A stretch of 64,000 nt of DNA from Ostrinia nubilalis. Taxonomy: Eukaryota > Arthropoda > Insecta > Lepidoptera > Crambidae. A model generated the notes under the pieces. It worked only from the letters and a program-made list of their open reading frames with translations. It was not told the DNA's origin and did no database searches. The position numbers and the translations under genes are program-made. The first letter of the stretch is position 1; every line of letters starts with the position of its first letter. The stretch is taken from contig NC_087118.1 in the NCBI RefSeq assembly GCF_963855985.1, positions 11,180,501 through 11,244,500 of the forward strand, given 5' to 3'. This document shows positions 6,341-63,147 of the stretch, piece after piece.

Positions 6341-7825
6341 TGGTGCCGTCCGAGAGCCCGACGCTCCGACATATATACAGGGTGTCCCGTAATGTAACGT
6401 CAAGCCGGAACTGGGTGTTGAGGCAAGTTGTGCTGGTTATCAGAAAAATATAAAAAAAATCTATGTGGCATATTTTAAAAATAATAGGCATTAAAAAAAA
6501 TCAAAAAATTCTACTCCAGGTGACGGTTCTTTTGCTCGTGTTGCCACAAATCTTCACTTTTTCCAATTTTTTTTTTGTTATGTAACCCTGAATAATGCTT
6601 CTCTAAATTGTTATCAAAATTACAAAACCAGCTGCTCCAGCTTGGATGAAAAAAATACATTATTCCCAAAAAAAAATTCAAAATAAAAATTTTGCCTAGT
6701 TTAAACTGACTGTACTGAAAAAAAAATGTACTACGCGAGTGTGGCAAGTGACGTCATAATTTGGCGCATTTAGTAAGGATTCCAAAATGGTATAACACTT
6801 GGTAAATTTTTGCTGTAATTGTCGACAATTTTTGGTTTTTTGGAAATAATCCCGTTTTTAACTTTATCTACCTTGGTTAAAAATTATTATTCTAATGTGC
6901 CCAAAATTCAAGTTTCTGTGACTTTTGTCACCATGACAGTAATTAGTAGTTGACATACTGTTACAAAAGTCACCCGTGCGCGCGCGCCTTTACTACCTGC
7001 TCTGCCTGCACTTGTACTTGGTAACAGGGATAATAAGGATATGAAGTTTCGGTTATGGATACGGTTACGGATATTAGAATAATATTATACCGGTTTCGGT
7101 TACGGTCACGGATATGAAATCATTTCAGATTATCCGAAAGTCTCGGATAATTTCGGTTACGGAATTATTAGAATTTCAAAAATGTAGGTATAATTCAAAT
7201 AGCAAGATGCTGCGTGAGCGTGACCCACATAGCTACTTTATGTACCAACTAAGACGACACCTATGTATGATAAAGGTAAAACAGGCTGGCATATTAGATG
7301 GTGCCAGCGAATGCCAGACAAGTTAGTAACAAATATTAAGATTTAAGGTACAATTCCAAGACGGGCCGCAGACCGCAAACTGCAAAACTATGAAATCGGC
7401 AGCGCGGCATTGCAGCTGCGGCGTGTATACTGCAGATTTCATAGAGTTTTGCAGTTTGGCCTTTATCCGAAACTATCCGTAACTTTTGAATCAGTTTCGG
7501 TTACGGTTATGGACATTTTTTTATTTCGGATATCCGATAGTTTCGGTTACGGTTACGAATATCCATAACATCCATAACATAATAATAAGTTCTTAATGAC
7601 AGGCAGCTCTTTACACCTGCCCCAAAGCATAAAATTAAAACTTGCTACTTTGTTAGCATATAATATTATTATATAAATATATTATTAATAAAGTAGCAAG
7701 TTAATATTATTAACTGTGTTATTAACACAAAACTTATTAAACATTTTGATATTATTAGTAGAATTAGTAGAAGTGTATTTCTGTGACGACCTCTGATTTA
7801 AACTGAGAGGGACACAAGAGACAGG

Positions 7826-8575
7826 TCTTTAAAAGGTTTTAATATTGTTCATCAAAATTTACAAGGCCTGGCTGGCAAAGAATTAGAATTAGAATTGTTT
7901 TTAAAAAAGTACAATGTTCACGTATTATGCATAACAGAACATTGGCTTAAAAAATATGAATTAATGTTTTATATAGGTAATTATAAAGTTTGTAGTTCGT
8001 TCACCAGGGAGTCGGCTATTAGAGGGGGGTCACTCATACTATTAAATAACCAATTTAAATGCAAAGAAAGGAAAGATATTGTTTTACTCTCAGTCGAACG
8101 AACTATTGCGCTTGCGTGTGCAGAGCTAGAGCAGTATATAATTGTAAGTGTGTACAAGCCCCCATCTGCAAATTACCAATTATTCGAATCCACTATGGAG
8201 GAAGTCTTAAAAAAAGTATTTAAATCAAATAAGAGAGTGGTTGTATGTGGAGATTTTAATATAGATTTATTAGATAATACTCAATATAAAATAAGATTCT
8301 TAAACCTGTTTAAATATTTTAACTTATTAAACCTCTTCAATGAGCCTACTAGAATCACTCCAACATCAGCTACTTGCTTAGATAATATTTTTTGTAACTG
8401 TAATATTCAAAGTAAATCAATAATTAATTGCCTTAGTTCAGATCATAGTGGACAATTGGCCACATTTGAACACCATCATGTCCCTAGTACAGTGGATGTT
8501 GTTTGTAGGCCAATAACAACTAATCGAATTGACAAATTCGAGAAAAAAAATTGTGATAGTATTGATAAACTATAA
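7826..8575 (+). pseudogene. LINE apurinic-type endonuclease domain
   Basis: The frame is open from before the first methionine (7895) and encodes an APE-type endonuclease, which nicks target DNA for LINE integration. Visible motifs in order are HQNLQGL (metal-binding asparagine), CITEHWL (catalytic glutamate), SVYKPP, CGDFNIDLL, TCLDNIF and LSSDHSG (catalytic Asp-His pair). These cover the normal domain of about 230 residues. The frame stops at 8575 and continues in another phase from about 8580, so there is at least one frameshift, probably in the run of A near 8545. The catalytic residues are present but the polyprotein is broken. Confidence 0.85.
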
Positions 8576-10190: not shown

Positions 10191-10283
10191 ATTTTATTTA
10201 TTATTTATTTATTTAAGACGTACAAAACAGGTTACAGCCAAAATATGATTTAATGTTTAATGTTTAATGATTTAAAAGTTTAA
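10190..10283. repeat. Small AT-rich insertion in the LINE, flanked by AGTTT
   Basis: The insertion holds TTATTTATTATTTATTTATT, a GACGTACAAAACAGGTTACA segment and three TTTAATGTTTAATG-like units. AGTTT occurs on both sides, which suggests a 5-bp target duplication. It looks like a truncated LINE or SINE tail in reverse orientation. Confidence 0.5.
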
Positions 10284-11656
10284 TGAAATTAAGTAAAATA
10301 ATCCCATTGTTCAAGGCTGGTGATAAATGTGACCCCTCTAATTTTCGGCCAATTTCTATTTTACCAGTACTTAGCAAAATTTTTGAGAAAATTATATTTC
10401 ATCAACTTCTTTCTCATTTTATTTTCAACAAATTACTTCACAATAAACAATTTGGTTTTACCAAAGGTAGAAGTACTACTGACGCTGGAGTAGCACTACT
10501 GAAACACGTCTTTGATGCTTGGGAGAGTAAAAAAGACGATGTTGGTATTTTTTGTGACCTTTCAAAAGCGTTTGATTGTGTAGACCACCAAACCTTACTA
10601 AAAAAATTGCGACATTATGGTGTTTCGGATGAGGCACTTGATTTGTTGAACTCGTATCTCACAGGCAGAAAGCAAAAAGTTTGTATTAATGGAACTGAGT
10701 CTTCTGGAGCACCTCTTACCATGGGTGTGCCGCAGGGATCGATATTGGGACCTTTGCTATTTCTTATTTATATTAATGACCTTCCCTACTTTGTAAAAGA
10801 TCTATGTGATATTGTGTTATTTGCTGATGACACATCTCTCATTTTCAAAGTTGATAGAGGTAAAGTAAACCTTGATGATATAAATGACACACTCTCACAG
10901 GTTTTGCATTGGTTTACTGTTAACAACTTATTGTTAAATGCAAACAAAACTAAGTGCATTAAATTTACCTTACCTAATGTGAGGCAGGTTCCCACACAAT
11001 TGATGGTGAAGAATGAACCATTAAATAGCATAAGTTCCACAACATTCTTGGGAATCACTTTAGACTCTAAACTTCAGTGGGGTCCTCATATTGAAACCTT
11101 GTCAGCAAGGCTCAGTTCAGCTGCTTTTGCAGTGAGAAAGATAAGGCAATTAACTGACATTGAAACGGCAAGGCTAGTTTATTTTAGCTATTTTCATAGT
11201 ATAATGTCATACGGCATATTGTTGTGGGGCTCAGCTGCGGACATTGAAACTGTGTTTGTTCTGCAGAAGAGAGCAGTGCGGGCCATTTATAACCTTGGAC
11301 CCCGATTTTCCTTGAGAGAATTCTTTAAGGAGATTAATATACTGACAGTAGCTTCACAGTTCATTTATGAAAACCTTTTATATGTTCGCAAAAATATAGA
11401 GCAATTTACTAGAAAGAGTGATTTACACAAGTTCAATACAAGAAACAAAAATAAACTTGCCGTTCCAAATTTCAGACTGCACAAGATTGGTAATTCATTT
11501 ATGGGGAAATGTATTAAACTTTTCAATAAATTACCACAAACTGTTGTAGAATTGCCCATTCATAAATTTAAAGCACATATCAAAAGCACCTTAATGAAAA
11601 AGGGCTACTATAAAGTTGATGATTATATAAAAGATAAAAATGTTTGGAATGTTTAA
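10283..11656 (+). CDS. LINE reverse transcriptase (CR1/Jockey-like), long open remnant
   Basis: A 457-codon frame encodes the RT palm, thumb and C-terminal region used for target-primed reverse transcription. Motifs in order are SNFRPISILPVLSK, FDLSKAFD-type CDLSKAFDCVDH (first Asp, around residue 95), MGVPQGSILGPLLF and LFADDTSLIF (catalytic Asp pair, around residues 180-190). A conserved C-terminal block with ILLWGSAAD follows. There is no RNase H domain. The frame is intact to its own stop, so this part decayed little, but it is cut off from its endonuclease by insertions and frameshifts. A 5'-truncated relative lies on the minus strand at 48255-49045. Confidence 0.9.
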   Translation: MKLSKIIPLFKAGDKCDPSNFRPISILPVLSKIFEKIIFHQLLSHFIFNKLLHNKQFGFTKGRSTTDAGVALLKHVFDAWESKKDDVGIFCDLSKAFDCVDHQTLLKKLRHYGVSDEALDLLNSYLTGRKQKVCINGTESSGAPLTMGVPQGSILGPLLFLIYINDLPYFVKDLCDIVLFADDTSLIFKVDRGKVNLDDINDTLSQVLHWFTVNNLLLNANKTKCIKFTLPNVRQVPTQLMVKNEPLNSISSTTFLGITLDSKLQWGPHIETLSARLSSAAFAVRKIRQLTDIETARLVYFSYFHSIMSYGILLWGSAADIETVFVLQKRAVRAIYNLGPRFSLREFFKEINILTVASQFIYENLLYVRKNIEQFTRKSDLHKFNTRNKNKLAVPNFRLHKIGNSFMGKCIKLFNKLPQTVVELPIHKFKAHIKSTLMKKGYYKVDDYIKDKNVWNV

Positions 11657-12017: not shown

Positions 12018-12252
12018 GGGGGGTAAGGGGGAGAATGGCGATAACATCTAGTCAGCCCCAAGTCAACCTCACCTGCACGACCTGGAACTCATAGGCGAAC
12101 CCAGGTACGACTGTTCTCCAGCGGTCGTGGTGCCCCCTGCTAGATAACGGACGAGGCAATGGCGACCGAGCTGTGGCGGGATAACCACTCACCTGCTCGG
12201 GCAACCGAGAAGAGGAGGCTCCAGCGGCCTTGGGATCTAAATAATCTCAAAA

Positions 12253-14103
12253 ATGTCTGACGCAGAAGGCAAGGGGAAACCACTGCGATCACATTCCCAA
12301 GAAAGTCACATGAGAGCACAGAAAAATGAGACACGATCGCCCTGCGAACCGATTAGCGACCGGCGCTGCGCTGCGTCCGGGGCGCGTGGTGTGAAGTTGG
12401 CTACCGGTCATGGTGGGGTGAGAGACCAGGCCCTCCATGGAAACTCTACTACTGGAAACTCTATTAAACTAAGACGCCTTCAGACGATAGGAACTTGGAA
12501 TGTGCGTGGCTTAAACCAACCTGGGAAACTTAACGTGTTGGAAAGAGAAGTAGTTAGAGTCGGTGTGAACATCTGTGGTCTAAGCGAAACTCACTGGAAA
12601 GGCAGCGGACATTTATTGACAGACCGCCACGTCATTTACTTTTCTGGCAACGACATTAGTAGCAGCAACGGTGTGGCCTTCTTAATACCCGTTCAACAGA
12701 AGAACTGCGTGATGGGGTACGAGCCGGTAAGCGATCGGATTATCAGCATAAAGATAAAAGCTTCACCAATTAATCTTAACATCATCCAGGTATATGCCCC
12801 AACCTCTACCGCAAGCGACGAGAAGATCGAGAAATTTTACTCCGAATTAGGAAATACAATAGCGAAGATACCCAATAGAGAGCTGTTGGTCATCCTTGGA
12901 GACCTAAACGCTAAGATCGGAGAGAGCGCTTATCAACTGGGCAAATGCGCGGGCAGATTTGGGCTCGGAAAGCGAAATGAACGAGGTGAACGCTTGATAC
13001 AGTTTGCTTCAGAAAACGATCTGCTAATTGTGAATAGCCTTTTTCAACACCACCCTCAAAGGCTGTACACCTGGGTATCACCTGATGGAAAAACTCGCAA
13101 CCAAATTGATTACATTATGATCCGGTCGCGATGGAGATCATCTGTAACAAATTCTCGTACGCTACCTGGGGCGGATTGTGGGTCTGACCACCAACTTCTG
13201 ATCTCCAAACTAAAGCTCAAGCTGACTGCAGCTAGAACCACTAAAAAGCAGAGAAAGCTGGAGGTAAGGGACATCCTCAAATTCCGTTCGATTATGGATC
13301 AAAAATGGCCCCAGTGGTCTGAAGCCGATCCAGCTAACGAAACCCCCGATATGCTGTGGGACCGTGCTAAAGCAATCATCACTACAACTGTATCGGAAGC
13401 CGCACCAAAAATTAAGACCTCCAAAAGACAGCACTGGACGACGGATGACACCTTCAAACTCGTCGAGAAACGCCGCAAAATGAAATCAATGGGAGTTGAT
13501 ATCGGGAATCTCAACAAAATGACCGCACAGATACAACTTAAATGCAGGCAAGACCATAATGCCTACCTAAACAATATATGCAATGAAATTGAAACGCACG
13601 CTGGCAGGTATGAGTCAAGAGACTTGTACCAGAAGATCCGCCTCATTACAAAAACACTACCGTCTAAAACCTGGGCTATCGAGGATCATAACGGCCAAGT
13701 ATTCACTGAACTAGACAAAATTTCGAGGGTCTGGAGAGATTACTGTCAGTCCCTGTTTCAGGACCCGCAGTCGCGAGATTTTGCAGCTACGACACCCGCG
13801 AGTGACATGCTTGAGCCTAATATCCTCGAGTCAGAAATAAGAGCTGCTATTCGACATCTTAAAAATGGGAAAGCGACAGGGAAGGATGAGATCCCAATTG
13901 AAACCATCCGAGCACTAGGCGAGCGTGGCGTTCATATATTTCATACCATTTGCAACAAGATATGGCTCACGGGCAAATGGCCCTCTGAATGGTGTCACAC
14001 AGTATTTGTGCCCCTTCATAAAAAAGGTTCCACGAGGAAGTGTGGCAACTTTCGGCTTATTGCCCTAATAACGCACGCTAGCAAAATAATGAGAGTTCAA
14101 TAA
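12253..14103 (+). pseudogene. RTE-like LINE ORF, endonuclease plus RT entry
   Basis: A 616-codon frame starts at an ATG after a leader rich in CACCTGC. The endonuclease spans about residues 75-320 with TIGTWNVRGL (Asn), ICGLSETHWKGSG (Glu), IQVYAPT, ILGDLNAKIGE, NQIDYIMIRSR and CGSDHQLL (Asp-His). RT entry blocks follow: HLKNGKATGKDEIPIETIRA, GKWPSEWCHTVFVPLHKKG and NFRLIALITHASKIM. The frame ends 12 bases before the inserted TIR element. About 60 residues expected between KIM and CFVDFSKAFD are absent, so DNA was lost at or before that insertion. The N-terminal half looks biochemically complete. Confidence 0.88.
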
Positions 14104-14114
14104 GCCGACATATA

Positions 14115-15896
14115 CAGGGTGTCCCGTAATGTAACGTCAAGCCGGAACTGGGTGTTGAGGCAAGTTGTGCTGGTTATCAGAAAAATATAAAAAAAAATCT
14201 ATGTGGCATATTTTAAAAATAATAGGCATTTAAAAAAAATCTAAAAATTCTACTCCAGGTGACGGTCCTTTTGCTCGTGTTGCCACAAATCTTCACTTTT
14301 TCCAAATTTTTTTTTTGTTATGAAACCCTGAATAATGCTTCTCTAAATTGTTATCAAAATTACAAAACCAGCTGCTCCAACTTGGATGAAAAAAATACAT
14401 TATTCCCAAAAAAAATATCAAAATAAAAATTTTACCTAGTTTAAACTGACTGTACTGAAAAAAAATTGTACTACGCGAGTGTGGCAAGTGACGTCATAAT
14501 TTGGCGCATTTAGTAAGGATTCCAAAATGGTATAACACTTTGTAAAATCTTGCTGTAATTGTCGACAATTTTTGTTTATTGGAAATAATCCCGTTTTTAA
14601 CTTTATCTACCTTGGTTAAAAATATTATTCTAATGTGCCCAAAATGCAAGTTTCTGGCTTAAGTGAGGTGGAGAAGACATTTTAAAAGGTATGAGCGGGA
14701 CGGAGAGGGCCATCTTACCAAGCAGGGATGTTATTGATATCCGTAACCGTAACCGAAACTATCGGATATCCGAAATAAAAAAATGTCCATAACCGTAACC
14801 GAAACTGATTCAAAAGTTACGGATAGTTTCGGATAAAGGCCAAACTGCAAAACTCTATGAAATCTGCAGTATACACGCCGCAGCTGCAATGCCGCGCTGC
14901 CGATTTCATAGTTTTGCAGTTTGCGGTTGCAGTTTGCGGTCTGCGACCCGTCTTGGAATTGTACCTTAAATCTTAATATTTGTTACCAACTTGTCTGGCA
15001 TTCGCTGGCACCATCTAATATGCCAGCCTGTTTTACCTTTATCATACATAGGTGTCGTCTTAGTTGGTACATAAAGTAGCTATGTGGGTCACGCTCACGC
15101 AGCATCTTGCTATTTGAATTATACCTACATTTTTGAAATTCTAATAATTCCGTAACCGAAATTATCCGAGACTTTCGGATAATCTGAAATGATTTCATAT
15201 CCGTGACCGTAACCGAAACCGGTATATTATTCTAATATCCGTAACCGTATCCATAACCGAAACTTCATATCCTTATTATCCCTGTTACCAAGTACAAGTG
15301 CAGGCAGAGCAGGTAGTAAAGGCGCGCGCGCACGGGTGACTTTTGTTACAGTATGTCAACTACTAATACTGATTAGAATAATAATAATTTTTAACCAAGG
15401 TAAATAAAGTTAAAAACGGGACTATTTCCAAAAAACCAAAAATTGTCGACAATTACAGCAAAACTTTACCAAGTGTTATACCATTTTGGAATCCTTACTA
15501 AATGCGCCAAATTATGACGTCACTTGCCACACTCGCGTAGTACATTTTTTTTTCAGTACAGTCAGTTTAAACTAGGCAAAATTTTTATTTTAAAATTTTT
15601 TTTGGGAATAATGTATTTTTTTCATCCAAGCTGGAGCAGCTGGTTTTGTAATTTTAATAACAATTTAGAGAAGCATTATTCAGGGTTACATAACAAAAAA
15701 AAAATTTGGAAAAAGTGAAGATTTGTGGCAACACGAGCAAAAGGACCGTCACCTGGAGTAGAATTTTTAGATTTTTTTTAAATGCCTATTATTTTTAAAA
15801 TATGCCACATAGATTTTTTTTTATATTTTTTTGATAACCAGCACAACTTGCCTCAACACCCAGTTCTGGCTTGACGTTACATTACGGGACACCCTG
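14115..15896. mobile_element. TIR element 1, intact inner copy
   Basis: Termini CAGGGTGTCCCGTAATG (14115) and CATTACGGGACACCCTG (to 15896) are flanked by TATA on both sides. The inverted arms are about 520 bp; the middle (about 14735-15295) holds repeated CCGTAACCG/CGAAAC motifs and internal palindromes. Short frames of about 64 codons inside the arms occur in every copy and have no recognisable content. The 1782-bp copy is non-coding and must depend on a transposase encoded elsewhere. Confidence 0.85.
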
Positions 15897-15897
15897 T

Positions 15898-16700
15898 ATA
15901 TGCTTTGTTGATTTCTCCAAAGCATTCGACTCTGTAAAATGGCCAACTTTATGGAGAACTCTACTGGAAATGGGAACCCCCCAACACCTCGTACACTTGC
16001 TCAGAGAACTCTACGAAGGGGGAACAGCTTCAGTGCGGACGGATGACCTCCTCTCGGATAGTTTCCATCCAAGTGCGGGTGTACGACAGGGATGCATAAT
16101 ATCACCTTTACTGTTTAACGTGTACACCGAGCTTATAATGCGTATCACTCTTGAAGACTGGACCGATGGTGTTGCAATTGGTGGATACAAAATTGCGAAC
16201 TTGCGGTATGCCGATGATACTACCCTATTTGCGAGTAACGCTGACCTTATGAAAGAATTACTTCTCAAAATGGAGCGCGTTAGCCTTACGTTTGGGTTGA
16301 AGATTAACCGATCGAAGACCAAGGTTATGATCGTGGATCGCTCTAATGAAAATTCGCCCGAAGTGACACACATTGCGAACTGTGACGTAGTTCAGACCTA
16401 CGTATATCTTGGAGCTCTCATCTCAAATAATGGCGGCTGCGTAGATGAAGTAAAACGTCGTATGGCCATAACCAGAACTGCGATGGAGAAGTTAAGGAAG
16501 TTATGGAGGAATCGCAACATTACCAAAGCCACCAAAGTTAGACTTGTGCGAGTGCTTGTATTCCCCATCTTTCTTTACGCAGCAGAGACATGGACAGTAC
16601 GCGACTTGGAAAAGAGGAAGATAGATGCCCTAGAGATGTGGTGCTGGAGAAAGATGCTCGGGATATCATGGACAGAGTTCCGTACCAATGTATCCAGGAG
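15898..16700 (+). pseudogene. RTE-like LINE ORF, RT palm and thumb
   Basis: The frame continues the RT after the inserted element. It opens with CFVDFSKAFDSVKWPTLW (first catalytic Asp), then GVRQGCIISPLLFNVY and NLRYADDTTLF (catalytic Asp pair). The thumb block KINRSKTKVMIV, YVYLGALISNNGG and the typical C-terminal AAETWTVRDL and WCWRKMLGISWTEFRTN follow. Phase is lost near 16690-16700, where a shifted frame takes over. Apart from that lesion and the missing segment before CFVDF, the catalytic core is preserved. Confidence 0.88.
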
Positions 16701-16994
16701 CTCGGTGTCACTCAGCGTTTATCAACCGTAGTACAGTCGCGCATACTGCAATACTTCGGACATGTTTCGAGGCGGGATGACAACTCCATAGAACGACTGG
16801 TCGTCCAGGAAAAAGTCGAAGGAACCCGATCGCGTGGCAGGTCACCAATGCGCTGGACCGACCAAGTGAAAGCAGCAGTGGGAGACGGCTTATGTGACTG
16901 CACCAGACAGTCTGCCAATAGAGAGAGATGGAGGGAGATCGTGCGGAGAGTTGTATCCGCCTCTACAACCGATGTGTACAACGCCTCAACGTGA
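16690..16994 (+). pseudogene. RTE-like LINE ORF, C-terminal end in shifted frame
   Basis: The shifted frame supplies the natural end of the protein: QSRILQYFGHVSRRDD, then RSRGRSPMRWTDQVKAAVG, WREIVRRV and a stop at 16994. These blocks are typical of the C terminus of RTE-type polyproteins. A 1- or 2-base indel near 16690-16700 separates it from the palm and thumb. Confidence 0.85.
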
Positions 16995-23270: not shown

Positions 23271-23278
23271 TATAAAAG
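23271..23278 (+). promoter_or_regulatory. TATA box upstream of a LINE insertion
   Basis: TATAAAAG stands 15 bases before a 5'-truncated Jockey-family insertion. After the insertion the flank reads GAGGCAGTCAGTTG, which contains the arthropod initiator TCAGT. Removing the insertion brings the TATA box and this initiator to about 25 bases apart; a short target deletion would restore the usual ~31. The promoter may belong to an LTR or to a host gene; a CAG|GTAAAC donor-like site follows at about 23480. Confidence 0.6.
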
Positions 23279-23285
23279 CGCCTGT

Positions 23286-23433
23286 GCTCGATACGGCCCG
23301 ATCGCGAACGTCGGTCTGCGACCGACGATCGCCAAACGGCTAGAGTACCTTCTGTACTCGCCACTCTGCCCGGTGAAGCTGGAAAAGCTCCTCAAGCTAC
23401 CAGCGCGCGTCCCTTCAAAAAAAAAAAAAAAAA
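23286..23433 (+). mobile_element. 5'-truncated Jockey-family LINE 3' UTR in a TATA promoter
   Basis: About 148 bases match the 3' UTR of the LINE at 54173-59773, from GCTCGATACGG to CCCTTC plus a poly(A) run of 17. It is in the same orientation as the TATA box at 23271. No target duplication is visible. The right flank begins GAGGCA, sharing the GGCA core seen at the other insertion sites. Confidence 0.85.
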
Positions 23434-25601: not shown

Positions 25602-25975
25602 TTTTTTTTTTTTTTTTTTTTTTGAAGGGACGCGCGCTGGTAGCTTGAAGAGCTTTTCCAGCTTCACCGGGCAGAGTGGCGAGTACAGAAGGTACTCTAG
25701 CCGTTTGGCGATCGTCGGTCGCAGACCGACGTTCGCGATCGGGCCGTATCGAGCGCATAAGGCGCCCGATCAGTGGCGAACCCAACTAGAGGGTTGCCCA
25801 CCGCGGTGTTGGACCAAAGTCCAGCCTACGGCGGGCTCACTCTAGTGGACCCGATCGAGGGGACTACGGACGCGGCCTGAGGGCGCCACGGTAGGCTCGG
25901 ACCTCGGCTCAGGCCGTGTCCGGGGGACGGATAGGGGAGAACCGGCCCGGTACATGTCTGTACCGTCCGAAATGG
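25602..25975 (-). mobile_element. 5'-truncated Jockey-family LINE 3' UTR, copy in solo LTR A
   Basis: A poly(T) run of about 22 is followed by the LINE 3' UTR reaching back to GTCCGAAATGGA. The stem-loop module with GGGCTTCGCGAAGCGAAGCCC is missing in this copy. CCTGCTCC lies on both sides (25594-25601 and 25981-25988). Orientation is sense relative to the LTR promoter. Confidence 0.9.
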
Positions 25976-25988
25976 AGACTCCTGCTCC

Positions 25989-26393
25989 TTTTTTTTTTTT
26001 TTTTTTTTTTTTTTCTGAAGGGACGCGCGCTGGTAGCTTGAGGAGCTTTTCCAGCTTCACCGGGCAGAATGGCGAGTACAGAAGGTACTCTAGCCGTTTG
26101 GCGATCGTCGGTGCGCGTGCCGACGAGGCCGAGTGTGGGCTTCGCGAAGCGAAGCCCAGGCTCGTCCGCGTCGGTCGCAGACCGACGTTCGCGATCGGGC
26201 CGTATCAAGCGCATAAGGCGCCCGATCAGTGGCGAACCCAATTAGAGGGTTGCCCACCGCGGTGTTGGACCAAAGTCCAGCCTACGGCGGGCTCACTCTA
26301 AGTGGGCCCGATCGAGGGGACTACGGACGCGGCCTGAGGGCGCCACGGTAGGCTCGGACCTCGGCTCAGGCCGTGTCCGGGGGACGGATAGGG
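25989..26393 (-). mobile_element. Second 5'-truncated Jockey-family LINE 3' UTR at the same LTR site
   Basis: Another poly(T) run and 3' UTR copy, here with the stem-loop module, stands directly next to the first. CCTGCTCC borders it at 25981-25988 and 26397-26404. Two separate insertions therefore used the same target bases, both sense to the LTR promoter. Confidence 0.9.
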
Positions 26394-26420
26394 ACTCCTG
26401 CTCCGTCGCTGCGCGCTCGA

Positions 26421-26426
26421 TTTATA
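26421..26426 (-). promoter_or_regulatory. TATA box of LTR A (solo copy)
   Basis: On the minus strand GGGTATAAATCGAG gives TATAAA at 26426-26421. The duplicated target GGAGCAGG lies about 22-29 bases downstream, where transcription should start. The same arrangement is seen in the other LTR A at 62401. Confidence 0.8.
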
Positions 26427-39205: not shown

Positions 39206-39339
39206 ACTCAGAAGTGGTACGTGATCTACAGCTCATAAGGTACGTTTTTATTTATTTGGTTAAAAAGTAATTGATTTTAAAAGTTCAAGTAGAAAAACGT
39301 ATGAATATTTCGTTTAATGCATGAAATAGTTATTTTTAA

Positions 39340-40105
39340 AACGAGGCTAGACGCGCCCTCAGTTTATCAGGCTAGATGCGCCTTAGACTATGACTATGAC
39401 TTTGACCATGACTAAGACTTAGTATAACGAGGCTAGACGCGCCTCCAGTTTAATAGGCTAGATGCGCCTTAGACTATGACTATGACTTTGACCATGACTA
39501 AGACTTAGTATAACGAGGCTAGACGCGCCTCCAGTTTAATAGGCTAGATGCGCCTTAGACTATGACTATGACTTTGACCATGACTAAGACTTAGTATAAC
39601 GAGGCTAGACGCGCCTCCAGTTTACCAGGCTAGATGTGCCTTTGACTATGACTAAGTATGAGACATGTAGAGGCTCCTTATGAGCAAAATATTTGACGAT
39701 TTGTTACTAAACAAATAAAGATATTTCGACTTTGACTTTGACTTTGACTATAACTATGACTATGACTATGAACTATGACTATGACTATGACTATGACTAT
39801 GACTATGACTTAGTATAACGAGGCTAGGCGCGCCTCCAGTTTATAAGGCTAGATGCGCCTTAGACTATGGCTATGACTTAGTATAAAGAGGCTAGACGTG
39901 CCTCCAGTTTATCAGGCTAGATGCCCCATTGACTATGACTAAGTATGAGACATGTAGAGGCTCCTTATGAGCAAAATATTTGACGATTTGTTAGTACTAT
40001 TAATTAGTCTACTAAACAAATAAAGATATTTTGACTTTGGCTTTGGCTTTGACTTTGACTTTGACTTTGACTTTGACTTTGACTTTGACTTTGACTTTGA
40101 CTATA
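39340..40105. repeat. Tandem array in element X (GAGGCTAGACGCGCC unit)
   Basis: Units of about 87 bp are built from ACGAGGCTAGACGCGCCTCC, AGTTTATCAGGCTAGATGCG and a CTATGACTATGAC stretch. Runs of GACTAT and GACTTT are expanded at about 39727-39810 and 40033-40105. The repeats are imperfect and non-coding. Confidence 0.85.
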
Positions 40106-40400
40106 ACTATGAACTATAATAATAATAATAATAATAAAATTGTTTATTTTCACACCTTATATGGCTTAATACATTACATCTAAAGTTACAATTAGAATTA
40201 AACATACATTATGAAGGAACAGAGAATGGTGTGACTGGAGCCTAATGTAGGGCAGCCCTGTATTTCAGGACTCCAGGTCCCACCCGTGAGGTTGAATGTA
40301 TACAATGAGAAGACATGAACAGTGAAAAGACATGAATACAATAATGACATGAATACAATACAATGCAAAGATATTCCGTTAGGAAAAATAAAGATGACGA
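40106..40400. other. AAT microsatellite and possible SINE/LINE tail
   Basis: An AAT run (about 40117-40136) is followed by AAATTGTTTATTTTCACACC and CTAATGTAGGGCAGCCC, resembling the reversed end of a lepidopteran LINE or SINE. The identity is uncertain. Confidence 0.4.
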
Positions 40401-40411
40401 CATTTGCTCCG

Positions 40412-40615
<204 letters not shown>

Positions 40616-40667
40616 ATAAGAAATTATATGGCTGTTGCAAATAGGTATGACATAGAAATAGACTATG

Positions 40668-40915
40668 ACTTAGTATAACGAGGCTAGACACTCCTCCAGT
40701 TTATCAGGCTAGATGCGCTTTTGAATATAACTGAATATAACGAGGCTAGACGCGCCTCCAGTTTATTAGGCTAGATGTGCCTTGGACTATGAGTGTGACT
40801 TAGTATAACGAGGCTAGACGTGCCTCCAGTTTCATCAGGCTACGTGCGCCTTGGACTATGACTAAGTATGACGAGGCTAGACGCGCCTCCAGTTTATCAG
40901 GCTAGATGCGCCTTA
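40668..40915. repeat. Second part of the GAGGCTAGACGCGCC tandem array
   Basis: About four diverged units of the same array continue after the TG run, with a shorter period near 65 bp because the GACTAT runs are reduced. The array ends near 40915. Confidence 0.8.
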
Positions 40916-44109: not shown

Positions 44110-44300
44110 TGTCGGAGAACGGTCAGAAGGGGCAGGTCATTATGTTTCACCAGGAAGTTAAATAAAACGATGTATAGTTTTTACACTATAGATTGTTGTA
44201 TTTCGGTAAGAATACAATAATAACAATAATAATATTTGAGCAGCCTCACACACAGGACCGAGACAATACCGAGCGGCGGGTAAGGCCAGAATGCCACGAC

Positions 44301-44462
44301 TATTTTTTTTTTTTTTTTTTGGACGCGCGCTGGTAGCTTGAGGAGCTTTTCCAGCTTCACCGGGCAGAGTGGCGAGTACAGAAGGTACTCTAGCCGTTTG
44401 GCGATCGTCGGTGCGCGTGCCGACGTTCGCGATCGGGCCGTATCGAGCGCATAAGGCGCCCG
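44301..44462 (-). mobile_element. 5'-truncated Jockey-family LINE 3' UTR in LTR B (left)
   Basis: TA plus a poly(T) run is followed by 3' UTR sequence reaching to GCGCCCG. The duplicated target is TGCCACGAC (44292-44300 and 44463-44471). A stem-loop module is shortened in this copy. It occupies the same target as the full-length LINE in the other LTR, within one base. Confidence 0.9.
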
Positions 44463-44488
44463 TGCCACGACTACGGTCGTGCTCGTTC

Positions 44489-44495
44489 TTTTATA
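44489..44495 (-). promoter_or_regulatory. TATA box of LTR B (left copy)
   Basis: TATAAAA on the minus strand (44495-44489). The target GTCGTGGCA follows 24-33 bases downstream, with the A of GGCAT at position +32 from the first T, the normal start-site distance. Confidence 0.8.
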
Positions 44496-47429: not shown

Positions 47430-48232
<803 letters not shown>

Positions 48233-53657: not shown

Positions 53658-54172
53658 GTATGCAAGTGCCACAACGCCCACAACTCTGAAAGCCATCCCT
53701 GTGACTATAGATTTCAAAATAATGTAATCATCCCTGTGATTTCGAACATGGTGATAGTCAATTGAAAAAAAATAATAACACGGGCCTTCTATTTCTGCAT
53801 TTCGGTGTTTGAAGGGCTCCAGAACAGCCGATAAATGACTTAGCGGAGTAAAATTGACGTGAGGGTTGTTAGAAATATTTTAAAAACATGGCCATAATGT
53901 TCCTTGAGTTTTGCCTGTACGGCAGAAAGGAGAAAAAAAATTGAAGTGGGCTGGCCTTCTTTATCCCGCTTCTGATATCGGAGAACGGTCAGAAGGGGCA
54001 GGTCATTATGTTTCAACAGGAAGTTAAATAAAACGATGTATAGTTTTTACACTATAGATTGTTGTATTTCGGTAAGAATACAATAATAATAACAATAATA
54101 ATATTCGAGCAGTCTCACACACAGGACCGAGACAACAATACCGAGCGGCGGGTAAGGCCAGAATGCCACGAC

Positions 54173-54543
54173 TTTTTTTTTTTTTTTTTTTTTTTGAATG
54201 GACGCGCGCTGGTAGCTTGAGGAGCTTTTCCAGCTTCACCGGGCAGAGTGGCGAGTACAGAAGGTACTCTAGCCGTTTGGCGATCGTCGGTGCGCGTACC
54301 GACGAGGCCGAGTGTGGGCTTCGCGTAGCGAAGCCCAGGCTCGTCCGCGTCGGTCGCAGACCGACGTTCGCGATCGGGCCGTATCGAGCGCATAAGGCGC
54401 CCGATCAGTGGCGAACCCAACTAGAGGGTTGCCCACCGCGGTGTTGGACCAAAGTCCAGCCTACGGCGGGCTCACTCTAGTGGGCCCGATCGAGGGGACT
54501 ACGGACGCGGCCTGAGGGCGCCACGGTAGGTTCGGACCTCGGC
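54173..54543 (-). other. 3' UTR of the Jockey-clade LINE
   Basis: The 3' UTR has stem-forming blocks: GTCGGTCGCAGACCGAC-like, GGGCTTCGC...GCGAAGCCC and CGATCGTCGG. Copies in the window differ by presence or absence of whole modules between these. This is the only part kept in the truncated copies and is probably the RNA signal recognised by the LINE protein. Confidence 0.8.
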
Positions 54544-57480
54544 TCAGGCCGTGTCCGGGGAACGGATAGGGGAGAACCGGCCCGGAACATGTCTGTACCG
54601 TCCGAAATGGAAAGCAGGGCCTCGTACTCGCCGGCGAGTACGGTGTAACGAGCTACTGTGTTGTGGAGTAGTTGGCGTGCTTAAGGCAGTGATGTCTGTG
54701 TTCAGAAATTCGGTAATAGGATCGTCCGGGTCGTCTAGGACATGCCTAGGTCGTCGGTATTGGGCAGCGACATCTTTCTGGGGTGTATACGTGGCGGCGC
54801 TAACGATAAGAGGGTTCTTGTGGTTGATCGCTTTATCAAAGTAGCGGCGAGAGGCTTCTTTCATAAAGTGATCAATCGATGGGATCTCGAAATCTCTATG
54901 GAGATTCGTATTACGCACGAACCACGGGGCATCCGCGGCTCGGCGTAAGAATTTGTTTTGGAGGGTCTGGAATTTCTTAAGGTCTGTGCAGGAAGTGTGA
55001 GCAAACACCGGACTGGCGTAAGTCAACACTGGACGGATGCAGGTTTTGTAAATTGTCAACTTATTTCTAAGTGACAATTTACTTTTCCTTCCAACTAGGT
55101 GGTAGAGTCGGTGGATGTAGTGGTTCGCACGGCTCAAGACGCGTCTGAGGTGCGGAGCGAACGATAATCTCTGGTCGAGGGTGACACCTAAGTACTTGGC
55201 CTCACTTTTCCAAGGAATAGTTTGGTCAAATAAGGTGAGATGGGTGGGGACATTAGGACGAGTGCGAACCGGAGGACGTTTCGCAGACAAAGCCCTAGAA
55301 AAGTACACTGCTGCACTTTTTTCGGGATTTACCTCGATACGCCACTTCCTGAACCATTCGCCTAATTGTGTGACTGCGCGTTGGAGCGCCAAGATGACGT
55401 AATTCCGATTACGTCCGGACTTGTAGAGTGCGGTGTCGTCCGCAAAGAGGGCTAAATCCGTATTCGGATATTTGGGGATGTCATTGACGTACAATGAAAA
55501 GAGGATGGGCGAGAGCACGGAGCCCTGGGGGACTCCGGCTCTTATGGGGCGGGGGGAGGAGAGGGAGCCATCTACTCGGTAACGAAAGGTGCGATTCGAT
55601 AAAAAGTCACGTAAGATGTGCACGAGACTGTCCGGCACACCGAGTTCGTAAAGCTTGTAAATCAAGCCATTGTGCCAGACTTTATCAAATGCCTTCGCTA
55701 CGTCGAAGAATAGCACTCCTGTCCCTACGGGTGGCTTAGCAGTAAGGCCGCTAAGTATGTGCTCCGTTAAGCGGTGCACCTGTTGTACGCAGGAATGTGA
55801 GGCGCGGAAGCCAAACTGTTCGTTTATTAAGAGATTATTAGAAAAAACATAATCTCTTAATCGAGAGACAATTATACGTTCGTATAACTTACCCATGGTC
55901 TTTAAGAGACTGATGGGTCTGTAGCTTGTGGGGTCAGCCAGTTTCTTACCGGGCTTCGGGATGCCAATGACTTCTGCCTCTTTCCACGCGTCGGGAAAGA
56001 TGCAGTGAGACATGGCCGCGTTGAAAATAGCAACCAAGAGGTATACTAGGGGGGCGGGCAGGGCGCGTAAGACTCTATTAGAGATACGGTCCGGGCCGGG
56101 GGCTTTGTTGGGACGGAAACCTTTGATTATCGTTCGCACCTCGTCGACGTTGGTCGGGTCTAGGGTTGTGGTCGGAGGGAGGGCGGCTCTACGTTCGACT
56201 TCGCTGTCCACCATGCGGAGGTGGGCAGAGTCTACTGGGAGGGTACTGGGGGAGCACTGTGCTTCTAGACTGTCGGCTAGACATTCGGCTTTGGCGTCGT
56301 CGTCAAACGCAAGCGTTTGATCGGGACGTAAAAGCGGTGGCGTAGACGCTACGGTGTCAGACTTAAAGGCTCTCGTCAACTTCCAATAGGCTTGGTGAGA
56401 TGGCGAGATTTCTTTAAGTAGATCATCCTACTGATTGTTACGGAGTTCCGCGATACGAGCCTTGACAGCGCGCTGTAAGGAACGTAGGCGGACTCTGTTT
56501 TCCTCGGTTGGATAAGCGTCATAATCGCGAGTGGCTGCGTTCTTTGCCCTCAATAGTTCTCGCGCGTCGTCCGGCAACCTGAGACGGTGGTTAGCCATCG
56601 CAGGCACTTGCCTAGACGAGTCGCCGATGGCGACCGAGATGTGACTAGTGAGCGCATCGATCGCGTGAATAGTTTCGTGAGGCGAAACTATATCGTCGGG
56701 GATTGAGGACAGTTGTGGGCTCTGACAGTTCCCAAGTTTTACCTTGAGTTTGTCCCAGTCCACAATTGTCTTCATAGTGGGTGTAGACTCAGGAGAGCCT
56801 AGTTGTAGTACGACCGGGCGATGGTCAGAAGTGAGCGCGTGCATGGTTTCTATAGAGTGTAGGCGGAGGCCTATATTCTTTAGAATTGCCATGTCCAGAA
56901 TGTCGGGCCGATGCTCGACATTGTAAGGATAGTGAGTGGGCGTCATAGGGACTAAGATGTCAAAGATGAGTTCCTCAGAGAGTTCGCTTAACATGTTGCC
57001 ATTGGCAGTGGATGTTACGCAACCCCAATGAGTGTGTTTGCTATTAAAGTCGCCGCCAAGAATGACTGCACTATTCATAGCAAAGAGGGCCTGAAAGTCG
57101 CTCCTTAAGGGAGTCTTGTTCGGGGAGAGGTAAACCGAGCCGATGAGGATGGGCTCGTGTCCAGTCATGGCTAACCGACAGAGTGAGACTTCTAGGTTAG
57201 AGAGAGAAGGGGGATCGACTAAAGCACAGTGCAGAGAACGCTTATAATAAATAAGCGTGCCGCCGCCACGTGTGGGCCTATCGTGTCTAATGATATTGTA
57301 GTTCGCTATCCTAGGATTGCGAATAGAGGGTGTTAGGAGGGTCTCTTGAACCAGAAAGATGTCGACCTGGTGGTCGGTAAGGAACTGAGTAACCTCGTCC
57401 TTCTGCTGTCTAAGACCGTTAGCGTTGAAAAATGCTAAGGTGATTGACCGGGGTTTGATCCTAGCGGTGGGATTAGCCAT
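54544..57480 (-). pseudogene. LINE ORF2, endonuclease and reverse transcriptase, one nonsense codon
   Basis: The ATG at 57480 overlaps the ORF1 stop as TAATG. The 978-codon frame encodes an APE endonuclease (about residues 8-235: LAFFNANGL, LVQETLL, GGDFNSKHTHWGC, LTSDHRPV). The Jockey-type RT follows (about 440-700: SYRPISLLKTMGK, FFDVAKAFDKVWH, AGVPQGSVLSPILF, LFADDTALY) with a C-terminal region including YASPVFAHTS. All catalytic residues are present. An in-frame TAG at 56430-56428 (codon 351, after ELRNNQ and before DDLLKEI) splits it between the two domains. Unless read through, the RT is not made. No RNase H domain is seen, as usual for Jockey. Confidence 0.92.
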
Positions 57481-57482
57481 TA
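57478..57482 (-). promoter_or_regulatory. TAATG stop-start overlap between ORF1 and ORF2
   Basis: The last base of the ORF1 stop codon TAA is the first base of the ORF2 ATG. In the Bombyx LINE SART1 the same UAAUG arrangement is known to support termination-coupled reinitiation, so ORF2 is probably translated that way here. Confidence 0.75.
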
Positions 57483-59081
57483 CGGAGCGTGGAAAGAGGA
57501 GATAGCGTAGCAAAAGTCTACGTGTTCGGCGAGGATAGATAACCTATCCATGATGTTGCCTTCGCCATTAGTCGCGCGCAGTTTTGCGGCGATCACAAAC
57601 ATCTCGCCGACATTAATTTGGCCAAAGAAGTCTCTGACCAACTTAATGTCAGCCGCAGGTGAATGTGAAGGCTGGGGCTTGGCCTGAGGGGCCGGGACTT
57701 TGTGGGCTGGTGCCTTAGGGGCAGGGGGACTTGGGTTAAGCGCCTGTTGGGTAGGTGCCTTTGGCGTAGCCTTAGGGGCTGGGTGGGGTTGAGGAGCCTG
57801 CTGGAGCGCGGGTGGGGCCACAGCTGTTTGGGTGGGTGTGGGAGTAAGGCTGGCAGCCTGGGTGTAGGCCAGAGGTCTAGCCCAAGCATTGGGCCTGTTG
57901 GGGCGGAGGCTAGGAGCCTCACTTGCTACCGCAAAGTTGCGAGTAGCATTGATCTGCCTGGGGGCAGAGGGGATGGGGGCACGCGGCTGAGTGCGTGGAG
58001 CCCGGGGACAACCGCGATAATTCGCAGGATGACCCTGGCTACCACACAGTATGCAGCTCGGTGGTTCGGTGGCTGTGGCCTTGTCACGGACACAGTCGGC
58101 TGTGCCGTGATCGCCTAGGCACTTAACGCACCTAGGACGGGCGTGACAATTACGGGCAGCGTGCCCGTAATGTTGACAACGGTGGCACTGGCCGGGAGCG
58201 CCGCGCTTTCGGGGTGGCTCAACTTTGAGCCCGGAGATGAAGCAAACCGTTTTCAAATTGAAAATCGATTTCGCTTCGTTGGAATAGTCCAAGACTACTT
58301 GGACAAGGTCAAATGGTTCACGTGTACGAGTCCTGTACAGACGGTGAACCTGTTTGACGGGAAAGTTTTGTGCCTTGAGGTCGGCCAAGATGGAGGCAGA
58401 GTCTAGCTCCTTGGGAAGGCCACGGATAACAACCCGGAGCTCCCTTTCCTCCTCGCGAGGGAAGGTATGATAACCGATACGGTTTTCATCTAGGAAGCGA
58501 GTTAGGGCTCGGTGCTCGTCCGAGGTGGACAAAGACACCTTAATGCCTACGTTGCACGACTTTGCGTGCGAGAAATTGATGTGGCGCTCCTTGAGCGCGC
58601 CGGAAATCTTGTTCCAGGACGCCTTGTCCTGGACAAAGACTGGGGGGACTCTGGCAGTCCGCCCGGTGCTCGACTGCGAGCCGGAGGGCTGGGAAGATTG
58701 CGAGGGCTGAGAGAGGCCCGAGTTGGCCTTCAGCGCCTTCGCAGGGGGGGAAGGAGGGGGAGAGGCCGCGGATTTGCGGGTCCTCTTCGGACGACTGACG
58801 GTGGTGAAGCCACCGTCATCGGCGTCTGAGACAGAGTCACATTCCATGTCCCCACTGGGGGCATGGGATTGGTGATCTATCACAATAGAGTGCTCGTTCG
58901 TGAGCGGGATTGGTAGAGGGGCCGAGTTCGGATCGCACATGGCGTCCTCGGGACATGACGGGGAAGCAGGCTCCTCATATACGGAGCTTGCGAGGGATTT
59001 TGCCCGTATGTGGGCTTTAAACCCGGAGAGGACCTCCGGGTGAGTGACCCGGAGGAACTTTAGGAGTTCCTCCGTGTCCAT
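57480..59081 (-). CDS. LINE ORF1, gag-like nucleic-acid-binding protein
   Basis: I chose the ATG at 59081 (MDTEELLKFLRV), because the upstream extension has no ATG. The 533-residue protein has an acidic linker and a PRE_C2HC-like domain (around residues 210-290: VVIRGLPKELDSASI, VHRLYRTRTREPF). Three zinc knuckles follow (CHRCQHYGHAARNC, CVKCLGDHGTADC, CILCGSQGHPANYRGC), then a long Pro/Ala-rich stretch and a C terminus with DFFGQINVGEMF. Such proteins coat LINE RNA in the particle and help target it. The frame is fully intact. It ends TAATG, coupling it to ORF2. Among the alternatives a Gag from an LTR element is unlikely, given the ORF2 next to it. Confidence 0.92.
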   Translation of the reverse strand: MDTEELLKFLRVTHPEVLSGFKAHIRAKSLASSVYEEPASPSCPEDAMCDPNSAPLPIPLTNEHSIVIDHQSHAPSGDMECDSVSDADDGGFTTVSRPKRTRKSAASPPPSPPAKALKANSGLSQPSQSSQPSGSQSSTGRTARVPPVFVQDKASWNKISGALKERHINFSHAKSCNVGIKVSLSTSDEHRALTRFLDENRIGYHTFPREEERELRVVIRGLPKELDSASILADLKAQNFPVKQVHRLYRTRTREPFDLVQVVLDYSNEAKSIFNLKTVCFISGLKVEPPRKRGAPGQCHRCQHYGHAARNCHARPRCVKCLGDHGTADCVRDKATATEPPSCILCGSQGHPANYRGCPRAPRTQPRAPIPSAPRQINATRNFAVASEAPSLRPNRPNAWARPLAYTQAASLTPTPTQTAVAPPALQQAPQPHPAPKATPKAPTQQALNPSPPAPKAPAHKVPAPQAKPQPSHSPAADIKLVRDFFGQINVGEMFVIAAKLRATNGEGNIMDRLSILAEHVDFCYAISSFHAP

Positions 59082-59773
59082 GGCATGGAGTTGAGATTCG
59101 CGACGCGTGAATCTACACCGGTTCGCAAGTCGCAACCACCGAGAAGAGCCGGCAAGAAACTCGGTGGTTATAGCGGTGTGTAAGTCCCGCACAGTCGGTG
59201 TAAACCGAGCGGGGTGTGTCGGAAAAGTGTGCCCTAGCCAATGTAACTACGCCGCAACGTAGCAACGCCGCGACGTAGGGTGAGTACCTACTCCTAGCAG
59301 TCCTTCAGGAGGGCCCCGGTCGTAAAAACAACCAGGGATACGCTCCTTCAGGGATGGAAAGTAGGGAGGGGTAGGGGGGGTCACGCCCGGCAGTGAGAAG
59401 ACTGTGAAACCGAGTGTCTCAAGGGCGAGGAGGAACGCCTCACCCTCTCAAACGTGCCTTCCAGGAGGCCAAGGTTCACAGCCTAATATACCGGCGGCGG
59501 CAGGAAATTTCAGCGCCTTGAAAAAGGCACTGTCGGTCGCTCCCAATCGAACCGAACCGCCTTTAGAAAGGCGTTTAACTACGCTTGTTCGTTATCACCG
59601 TTAGGTATCCCAAGCGCAGCCGCGGGCAAGCCACGTAATTGTGACAAAACACCACAGAAACAAGACTCGCAGAGCGAGGGCGATAAGCTCGAGGAACTCG
59701 GAGCGCAGCGCATGCGAGCGGGCGGGCGAGGCGGAGCGCACGTCCGTACCGTGCGAGCGATGCGAAGCGAATC
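59082..59773 (-). other. 5' UTR of the Jockey-clade LINE
   Basis: GC-rich, with many CpG and short stems (CCTTCAGGAGGG, GCCTTTAGAAAGGC). From its 5' end it reads GATTCGCTTCGCATCGCTCG; no TCAGT initiator is at the start. GGACG stands 29-33 bases downstream, close to the position of a DPE (RGWYV), which could be chance. Confidence 0.7.
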
Positions 59774-59800
59774 ATGCCACGACTACGGTCGTGCTCGTTC

Positions 59801-59807
59801 TTTTATA
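59801..59807 (-). promoter_or_regulatory. TATA box of LTR B (right copy), upstream of the full-length LINE
   Basis: TATAAAA on the minus strand (59807-59801). The predicted start (about 31-32 bases downstream, the A at 59775) lies in the duplicated target GTCGTGGCAT, two bases before the first base of the LINE at 59773. Confidence 0.8.
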
Positions 59808-62400: not shown

Positions 62401-62406
62401 TATAAA
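62401..62406 (+). promoter_or_regulatory. TATA box of LTR A
   Basis: GGGTATAAATCG. Joining the flanks of the LINE fragment gives GGAGCAGGCATTCTTGG, where GCATTCTT fits the arthropod initiator KCABHYBY and its A lies 31 bases after the first T of the TATA box. This is a textbook promoter spacing. Confidence 0.85.
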
Positions 62407-62432
62407 TCGAGCGCGCAGCGACGGAGCAGGCA

Positions 62433-62752
62433 GTTCCCCCTCGATCGGGCCCACTAGAGTGAGCCCGCCGTAGGCTGGACTTTGGTCCAACACCGCGGTG
62501 GGCAACCCTCTAGTTGGGTTCGCCACTGATCGGGCGCCTTATGCGCTCGATACGGCCCGATCGCGAACGTCGGTCTGCGACCGACGCGGACGAGCCTGGG
62601 CTTCGCTTCGCGAAGCCCACACTCGGCCTCGTCGGCACGCGCACCGACGATCGCAAAACGGCTAGAGTACCTTCTGTACTCGCCACTCTGCCCGGTGAAG
62701 TTGGAAAAGCTCTCCAAGCTACCAGCGCGCGTCCCTTCAAAAAAAAAAAAAA
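62433..62752 (+). mobile_element. 5'-truncated Jockey-family LINE 3' UTR in LTR A
   Basis: 320 bp with a poly(A) run of about 14, including the stem-loop module. The perfect 10-bp duplication GGAGCAGGCA stands at 62423-62432 and 62753-62762. It is sense to the LTR promoter and placed at the predicted start site. Confidence 0.93.
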
Positions 62753-63147
62753 GGAGCAGGCATTCTTGGCTCTGGCGCGGCACGGTGCACACCTTGTACT
62801 ATTGCTAAGCTGTTCCTAGACCTATTGGATAATTAATTTAAATGTTAAGTTAATTATTATCATTAATTATTAAAATGCCCATAGGCGCTTTATAATTAAT
62901 TAAAATAAAGTCACTTGTGGTTAAAGCCTGAGCATTGGCCACAATTGAAGTGTTAGCTTTACGCTACTCAATTAAGACTAATTGCTGAATCACTACCATT
63001 TATTAAATTGCTGTTCTTATAATTAATAAAAATAGCTATATCTTGATATCTCTGCCTTATTAATTCATCCTGTCCGACTCACTTCCTACATCAGAAGTGG
63101 GATCGGCTCCACCCCCACATTATAGTCAGACCGACACAAGCAGTGAA

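Follow-up and report, generated by a model that had tools for sequence, protein, structure and literature searches.

Preferential insertion of a Jockey-type LINE of Ostrinia nubilalis at a set distance downstream of TATA boxes

Introduction

Site-specific long interspersed nuclear elements (LINEs) read one repeated sequence, for example ribosomal DNA or telomeres; the sequence-specific elements R1, R2, TRAS, SART and SLACS/NeSL each hit one DNA sequence. The known members of the Jockey clade, which include jockey, Doc, F and BS as well as the telomeric HeT-A/TART/TAHRE, are dispersed or telomeric. Tf1 and other elements that prefer the promoters of RNA polymerase II (Pol II) insert upstream, in broad windows and by means of an integrase, not at the start base. 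We are not aware of any LINE that sits at the start sites of Pol II, and our literature search, whose coverage mostly left out subscription journals and preprints, found none aimed at them. Host-guided homing is already established for elements at the genes of RNA polymerase III (Pol III). The yeast long terminal repeat (LTR) retrotransposon Ty3 integrates 1-4 nt from Pol III starts and requires a functional promoter (PMC5911963; see also PMC8632968). The non-LTR elements TRE5/TRE3 of Dictyostelium and their relatives lie some 50 bp upstream or 100 bp downstream of tRNA genes, with one element as near as about 4 bp upstream, according to an excerpt of PMC5006619, and Tf1/Tf2 are placed in promoter regions according to an excerpt of PMC4600332. 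We describe here a LINE of Ostrinia nubilalis, found at full length in a 64,000-nucleotide stretch of contig NC_087118.1 (the window), whose copies show a strong preference, which is not an absolute rule, for a position just downstream of a TATA box.

Like the Jockey-clade LINEs, this element has a first open reading frame (ORF1) with a PRE_C2HC domain, an APE-type endonuclease, a reverse transcriptase, a poly(A) tail and a motif resembling the downstream promoter element (DPE) at +28; unlike the dispersed or telomeric members of the clade, it is found at presumed Pol II-type start positions. The target position is precise and repeated and the orientation is fixed, as with R1, R2, TRAS, SART and SLACS/NeSL, but the 44 unrelated targets described below share mainly a promoter geometry. 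Insertion close to a presumed promoter start, placed here by TATA spacing, recalls Ty3, whereas Ty3 is an LTR element with an integrase and Pol III promoters and this element is a LINE, which would insert by target-primed reverse transcription and at promoters of Pol II type. It resembles TRE5/TRE3 in being a non-LTR element at a set distance from a transcribed unit, with Pol II-type promoters in place of tRNA/Pol III genes. A preference for promoters is shared with Tf1, in contrast to which insertion is at the presumed start position and not, through an integrase, in broad upstream windows.

Results and Discussion

A TATA box at a fixed distance from most insertion points

The full-length LINE lies on the minus strand of the window and is flanked by both copies of a 10-bp target-site duplication (TSD). 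Its features are the following.

54173-59773, minus strand: full-length LINE; 5' end at 59773, poly(A) beginning at 54173
54163-54172, minus strand: 3' copy of the 10-bp TSD, GTCGTGGCAT on the LINE strand (sequence and position checked)
59774-59783, minus strand: 5' copy of the 10-bp TSD (sequence and position checked)
59800-59807, minus strand: TATA box TATAAAAG of the promoter family LTR A, starting 24 nt 5' of the duplication
57480-59246, minus strand: ORF1 (gag-like) frame with PRE_C2HC (Pfam PF07530)
56428-57543, minus strand: 5' part of ORF2, APE-type endonuclease (Pfam PF14529, PF03372)
54544-56427, minus strand: 3' part of ORF2, reverse transcriptase (Pfam PF00078 and related proteins)
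59740-59772, minus strand: 5' end of the LINE, with the presumed +1 at the A of ATTCGC (59772) and the DPE-like GGACGT at 59740-59745

Insertion sites were rebuilt from four sources: the window (4 resolved sites), 30 of the 39 other best matches to a 1-kb piece of the LINE, the 30 exact 3' ends that came first by contig order, and full-length copies on contigs C5 to C11 with ends about 5.5 kb apart. The target was not used in choosing copies, except for L135 and L136, which were added after a TATA box had been seen there. We obtained 60 junction pairs with a TSD, among the 655 genomic copies of the 3' end, together with 13 without a TSD and 7 without a flank. Three of the 60 sites, which followed another copy of the LINE, were left out, and the remaining 57 gave 44 target sequences at 70% identity, which were mutually unrelated in sequence.

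Alignment of the 44 targets on the duplication showed a single strong feature: some 22 nt upstream stood a TATA-like box. The exact motif TATAWA was found at positions -27 to -19 of the TSD in the sense orientation at 15 of 44 targets and in the antisense orientation at none of the 44; of 438 control windows, 2 contained it. When one mismatch to TATAWAW was allowed in this interval, 29/44 targets had a box versus 24/438 control windows (p 2.6e-21), which upholds the view of the first-pass annotation that chance placement would be very improbable. The proportion was 27/42 versus 22/418 when LTR B (known from the window only) and L136 (picked knowing its TATA box) were removed, and 26/41 versus 22/408 when LTR A was removed as well. 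A position weight matrix for the TATA box matched 34/44 targets and 1 to 6 in seven other windows; when the matrix was retrained separately in each window, the values were 34/44 and 15 to 22. Counted from the first T of the box, the TSD started at TATA+22 to +24 in 25 of the 29 targets and ended at +33 to +35 in 19 of them. The TSDs were 7-14 bp long (median 11).

Such a pattern could also arise by survival, if insertion were random and only the copies borne by promoters were transcribed and multiplied. A captured promoter could drive the LINE, and two long leaders, described below, match the start region of another target. We rejected this explanation, whose probability we regard as very small, because a TATA box was present in 6 of 9 families of 5'-truncated copies, from which no further spread is expected, as it was in 23 of 35 full-length families; the truncated copies represent nine families only. 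The narrow spacing of the cuts and the repeat hits at nearly the same base also speak against survival.

At the level of the whole genome, 48 of the 128 exact LINE 5' ends, each defined by a 27-mer, had TATAWA in sense between 20 and 50 nt upstream (50 rows, two of them doubled by TATATA). By reading, these 48 loci span about 24 different promoter sequences, and about 16 of them are LTR A or close variants; three LTR A-type loci on contig C31 have a common leader and look like one duplicated locus. The next 31-nt bin upstream held TATAWA at 6 loci, of which 4, by reading, had a long 5' leader and otherwise the same geometry. The reversed motif was found at 7 loci, 6 of which also had the sense motif, so that 1 of 128 exact 5' ends had solely a reversed motif. 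The copies outside the window have the same TATA spacing as those inside it, and the central claim thereby came through most of the check that the first-pass annotation had proposed.

Within the window, BLAST detected six LINE copies, all of which had a TATA box on their 5' side that was oriented like the copy itself, which bears out what had first been noticed there. They correspond to five targets, because the two copies of a tandem pair share a single promoter. The copies other than the full-length one, and their boxes, are as follows.

44303-44462, minus strand: 5'-truncated copy in a second LTR A, with TSD TAGTCGTGGCA at 44292-44302 and 44463-44473
44488-44495, minus strand: TATA box of this second LTR A
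62437-62752, plus strand: 5'-truncated copy in LTR B, with TSD GGAGCAGGCA at 62423-62432 and 62753-62762
62401-62408, plus strand: TATA box TATAAATC of this LTR B
25602-25976, minus strand: truncated copy, downstream half of a head-to-tail pair in LTR B (BLAST)
25994-26393, minus strand: truncated copy, upstream half of the same pair (BLAST)
26419-26426, minus strand: TATA box TATAAATC of the LTR B of the pair
23283-23433, plus strand: 5'-truncated copy behind TATTATAAAAGCGCC, without TSD and with a short target deletion
23271-23278, plus strand: TATA box TATAAAAG of the preceding site, whose promoter is closely similar to that of site L023

The copy at 23283-23433 lies behind TATTATAAAAG; it has no target duplication, and the short target deletion is relative to the related site L023.

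Sequence at the cuts

Over the 44 targets, no conserved word was found at either nick, apart from a scarcity of A at the first base, which is imposed by the poly(A) boundary. The LINE therefore lacks the single conserved target sequence that is the trait of sequence-specific LINEs. The word GGCA|TTCT, proposed at first as the target, which would then be present by chance in several LTR starts, is common to LTR A and LTR B, to which GGCA at the junction belongs; as a general target it did not hold, given the absence of a conserved word, and we leave it practically no chance of being the address.

A weaker signal was found near the expected start. The dinucleotide CA occurred at TATA+30 to +32 in 14 of 29 targets, while other triplets of positions gave 2 to 10, a moderate enrichment. 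CA[GT]T started 0-7 nt past the TSD start in 9 of 44 targets and 8-15 nt past it in 12, versus 1 to 7 in other 8-nt windows. TCAGT stood directly 5' of the LINE at 9 of 128 ends and at 2 in a control bin, when families were not collapsed.

The targets

The 28-bp promoter of LTR A has 102 copies in the genome at two mismatches or fewer, 92 of them exact. Among the exact promoters with same-strand neighbours less than 13 kb away, 13 of 26 spacings were 4.4-5.0 kb, and some neighbours lay about 10-11 kb apart, as expected with a 5.6-kb LINE inside. LTR A behaves as an LTR. Of its 92 exact promoters, 65 were uninterrupted and 12 were undecided; in at least 15, from about 13 events, the start site was occupied by the LINE. 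Contig C31, which carries the window and represents 12.4 Mb of the 495-Mb genome, holds 35 of the 92 exact promoters; we guess that it may be a repeat-rich sex chromosome.

These counts bear on the possibility that the LINE protein itself reads the TATA DNA, by its sequence or its shape, and cleaves at a distance of two to three turns downstream without any transcription factor. Site-specific LINEs can bind DNA upstream of the nick, and R2-type proteins read their DNA; at our targets, TATA was the only strong motif and its distance and orientation were fixed. However, TATAAAAG occurs at 56,464 genomic sites, which include the 92 exact copies of LTR A, and at least 15 LINE copies lie in these 92, while ten other TATAAAAG sites precede an exact LINE 5' end by our own count. 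TATA alone is therefore insufficient as an address. The recurrence of CA at TATA+30 to +32 also argues against direct reading, as does the variation of the box, which is much what the TATA-binding protein (TBP) is known to tolerate, and we consider such reading unlikely.

The frequent hits in LTR A would be compatible with a preference for open promoter chromatin in general, of which TATA promoters would be the sharpest case, with a precision that comes from a DNA step exposed there. The 15 of 44 targets without a clear TATA box also point in this direction. On the other side, the TATA spacing stays within about 3 nt in most of the targets that have a box and the box is nearly always in sense, which is far tighter than open chromatin would lead us to expect; this explanation appears distinctly improbable to us.

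Five other targets were hit repeatedly (L013/L018, L025/L067, L044/L103, L056/L101/L115 and L058/L097), and these recurring targets are probably repeats. The sequence downstream of 13 sites was examined for host gene promoters among the targets, and no gene was identifiable. The first-pass annotation had described insertion at the promoter starts of LTRs in a fixed orientation. Position and orientation stood; as far as can be told, targeting is not limited to LTR promoters, because there are 44 independent targets, most of unknown kind.

Proposed mechanism

We think it probable that this Jockey-type LINE directs its target-primed integration to Pol II core promoters through the initiation machinery bound there. 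Targeting itself we hold close to certain, while the agent that guides it is inferred. The protein-RNA complex of the LINE would dock on TBP/TFIID or on the open complex, not on a DNA word. For the numbering of the cuts, the start was taken to lie 31-33 nt after the first T of the TATA box, with CA at TATA+30 to +32. The template strand would be nicked first, at about -9, where the duplication starts, and would prime the copying of the LINE RNA into DNA; the cut in the second strand would fall at about +2 or +3, at the end of the duplication. This order of cuts follows from the standard target-primed scheme applied to the geometry of the TSDs and the sense orientation of the copies. Positions -9 and +2/+3 are approximately the edges of the Pol II bubble, and the two cuts may thus bracket the DNA melted by Pol II at initiation. 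We are inclined to think that the Pol II initiation complex serves as the address of the LINE, with cuts at both edges of the bubble and a sense self-insertion that both keeps and captures the promoter. The TATA box remains upstream of the new copy; the same start could therefore be hit again, which would give head-to-tail arrays.

Several points weigh against this reading. The controls were all other windows of the same sites, and the idea itself came from window copies, which make up 4 of the 60 sites. TATAWAW was lacking, at one mismatch, in 15 of 44 targets, although several of these had, by eye, an AT-rich stretch in the same place. Of the 13 junctions without a TSD, 4 or 5 had an upstream TATA box by eye. 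The initiator word YYANWYY was not clearly enriched (5 and 3 of 44 in the TSD region versus 1 to 6 elsewhere), nor was [CT]CA[GT]T (6 and 3 of 44 versus 1 to 4). Because these longer initiator words were not clearly enriched, the start position is derived mainly from TATA spacing, and the label "start site" is put forward on that spacing together with the moderate CA enrichment. A search of viral contigs for relatives with flanking DNA found none, and the results cover one genome.

If the mechanism is correct, we would know of no earlier case of a non-LTR element homing to Pol II initiation, the LINE would have converged with Ty3 at Pol III genes, and the basal transcription machinery would be able to steer target-primed reverse transcription. 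It would explain how the LINE keeps ending up behind a promoter, and the LINE copies would be a natural record of germline start sites. Cap-site data and a biochemical cut assay would test the idea directly, and it is relevant to the writing of DNA at chosen places with LINE proteins.

Head-to-tail copies, leaders and the presumed promoter of the LINE

Head-to-tail copies at one target were found at L024, L105/L106, L117/L118 and 25602-26393 of the window. Two listed sets of 100 places each contained 2 pairs of same-strand places 5.6 kb apart, and they contained 0 and 2 opposite-strand neighbour pairs within 12 kb.

Two copies, L125 and C30:3662560, have 5' leaders with 10 and 11 nt, respectively, in common with the start region of the L042 promoter, a match that 0 of 300 shuffles reached in either case. 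It would seem that the RNA of these two copies was initiated on this promoter, which the LINE had captured. As donor tags, short leaders were not informative in general, since 13 of the 15 leaders tested were not clearly above shuffles. The 5' flank of L107/L108, which has no TSD, resembles a stretch just downstream of the L032 promoter start and perhaps reflects a 5' transduction. The leaders of L009, L101 and G000:C32:2482332 contain repeated bits of the 5' end of the LINE itself, perhaps by template switching.

The LINE presumably keeps an internal promoter of Jockey type. The DPE-like GGACGT at +28 to +33 is the sole match to RGWYVT in the first 200 nt of the LINE, and an excerpt of PMC4748587 places a DPE at about +28 to +32 in jockey, Doc, G, I, F and other insect LINEs. 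Since it carries this DPE-like match as insect LINEs do, the element need not depend on a captured promoter; an early idea that an internal promoter was absent was dropped for this reason. The base that precedes ATTCGC was C in 19, G in 18, T in 6 and other in 3 of 46 cases, and a C gives the initiator-like CATTCG.

Coding capacity and age of the LINE

By its domains and copies, the LINE is a young element of Jockey type. ORF1 contains a PRE_C2HC domain (E 4.5e-14), whose presence in ORF1 we take to be associated with Jockey. The ORF2 matches are to an APE-type endonuclease (PF14529, 9.4e-16; PF03372, 3.2e-15) and to a reverse transcriptase (PF00078, 4.1e-44). Among the best 120 related proteins listed, those with insect names were all from Lepidoptera, and several, among them proteins of Papilio and Eumeta, were named mobile element jockey; the clade call was made by domains and names. 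A PDB search with the reverse transcriptase part matched R2 and L1 proteins, and one with the endonuclease part of ORF2 gave no match. No integrase domain was present among the Pfam matches of the three LINE frames. The hallmarks of an LTR element were not found: the LINE has a poly(A) tail, TSDs of 7-14 bp and 5' truncation, and is without an integrase domain. Two LINE proteins, P0022 and P0084, are filed under Acinetobacter baumannii in a public source, probably through contamination with insect DNA.

The 655 genomic copies of the 3' end were counted at two mismatches or fewer in the 495-Mb genome, and the 128 copies of the 5' end are exact. In 15 full-length copies that were read, a set biased toward those closest to the window copy, ORF2 was open over 999 codons in 14 and a frame of the size of ORF1 was present in all 15; the window copy has a broken ORF2.

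Other repeats of the window

Fragments of other LINEs, with endonuclease or reverse transcriptase domains, are located at 7802-8575, 10271-11656, 12241-14103 and 15838-16731 of the window. A long array of 8-bp units at 47703-48100 adjoins copies of another repeat, and units of the GGCTAGATGCGCC type form an array at 39301-40914, where they are interspersed with GACTATGACTATGA-like repeats.

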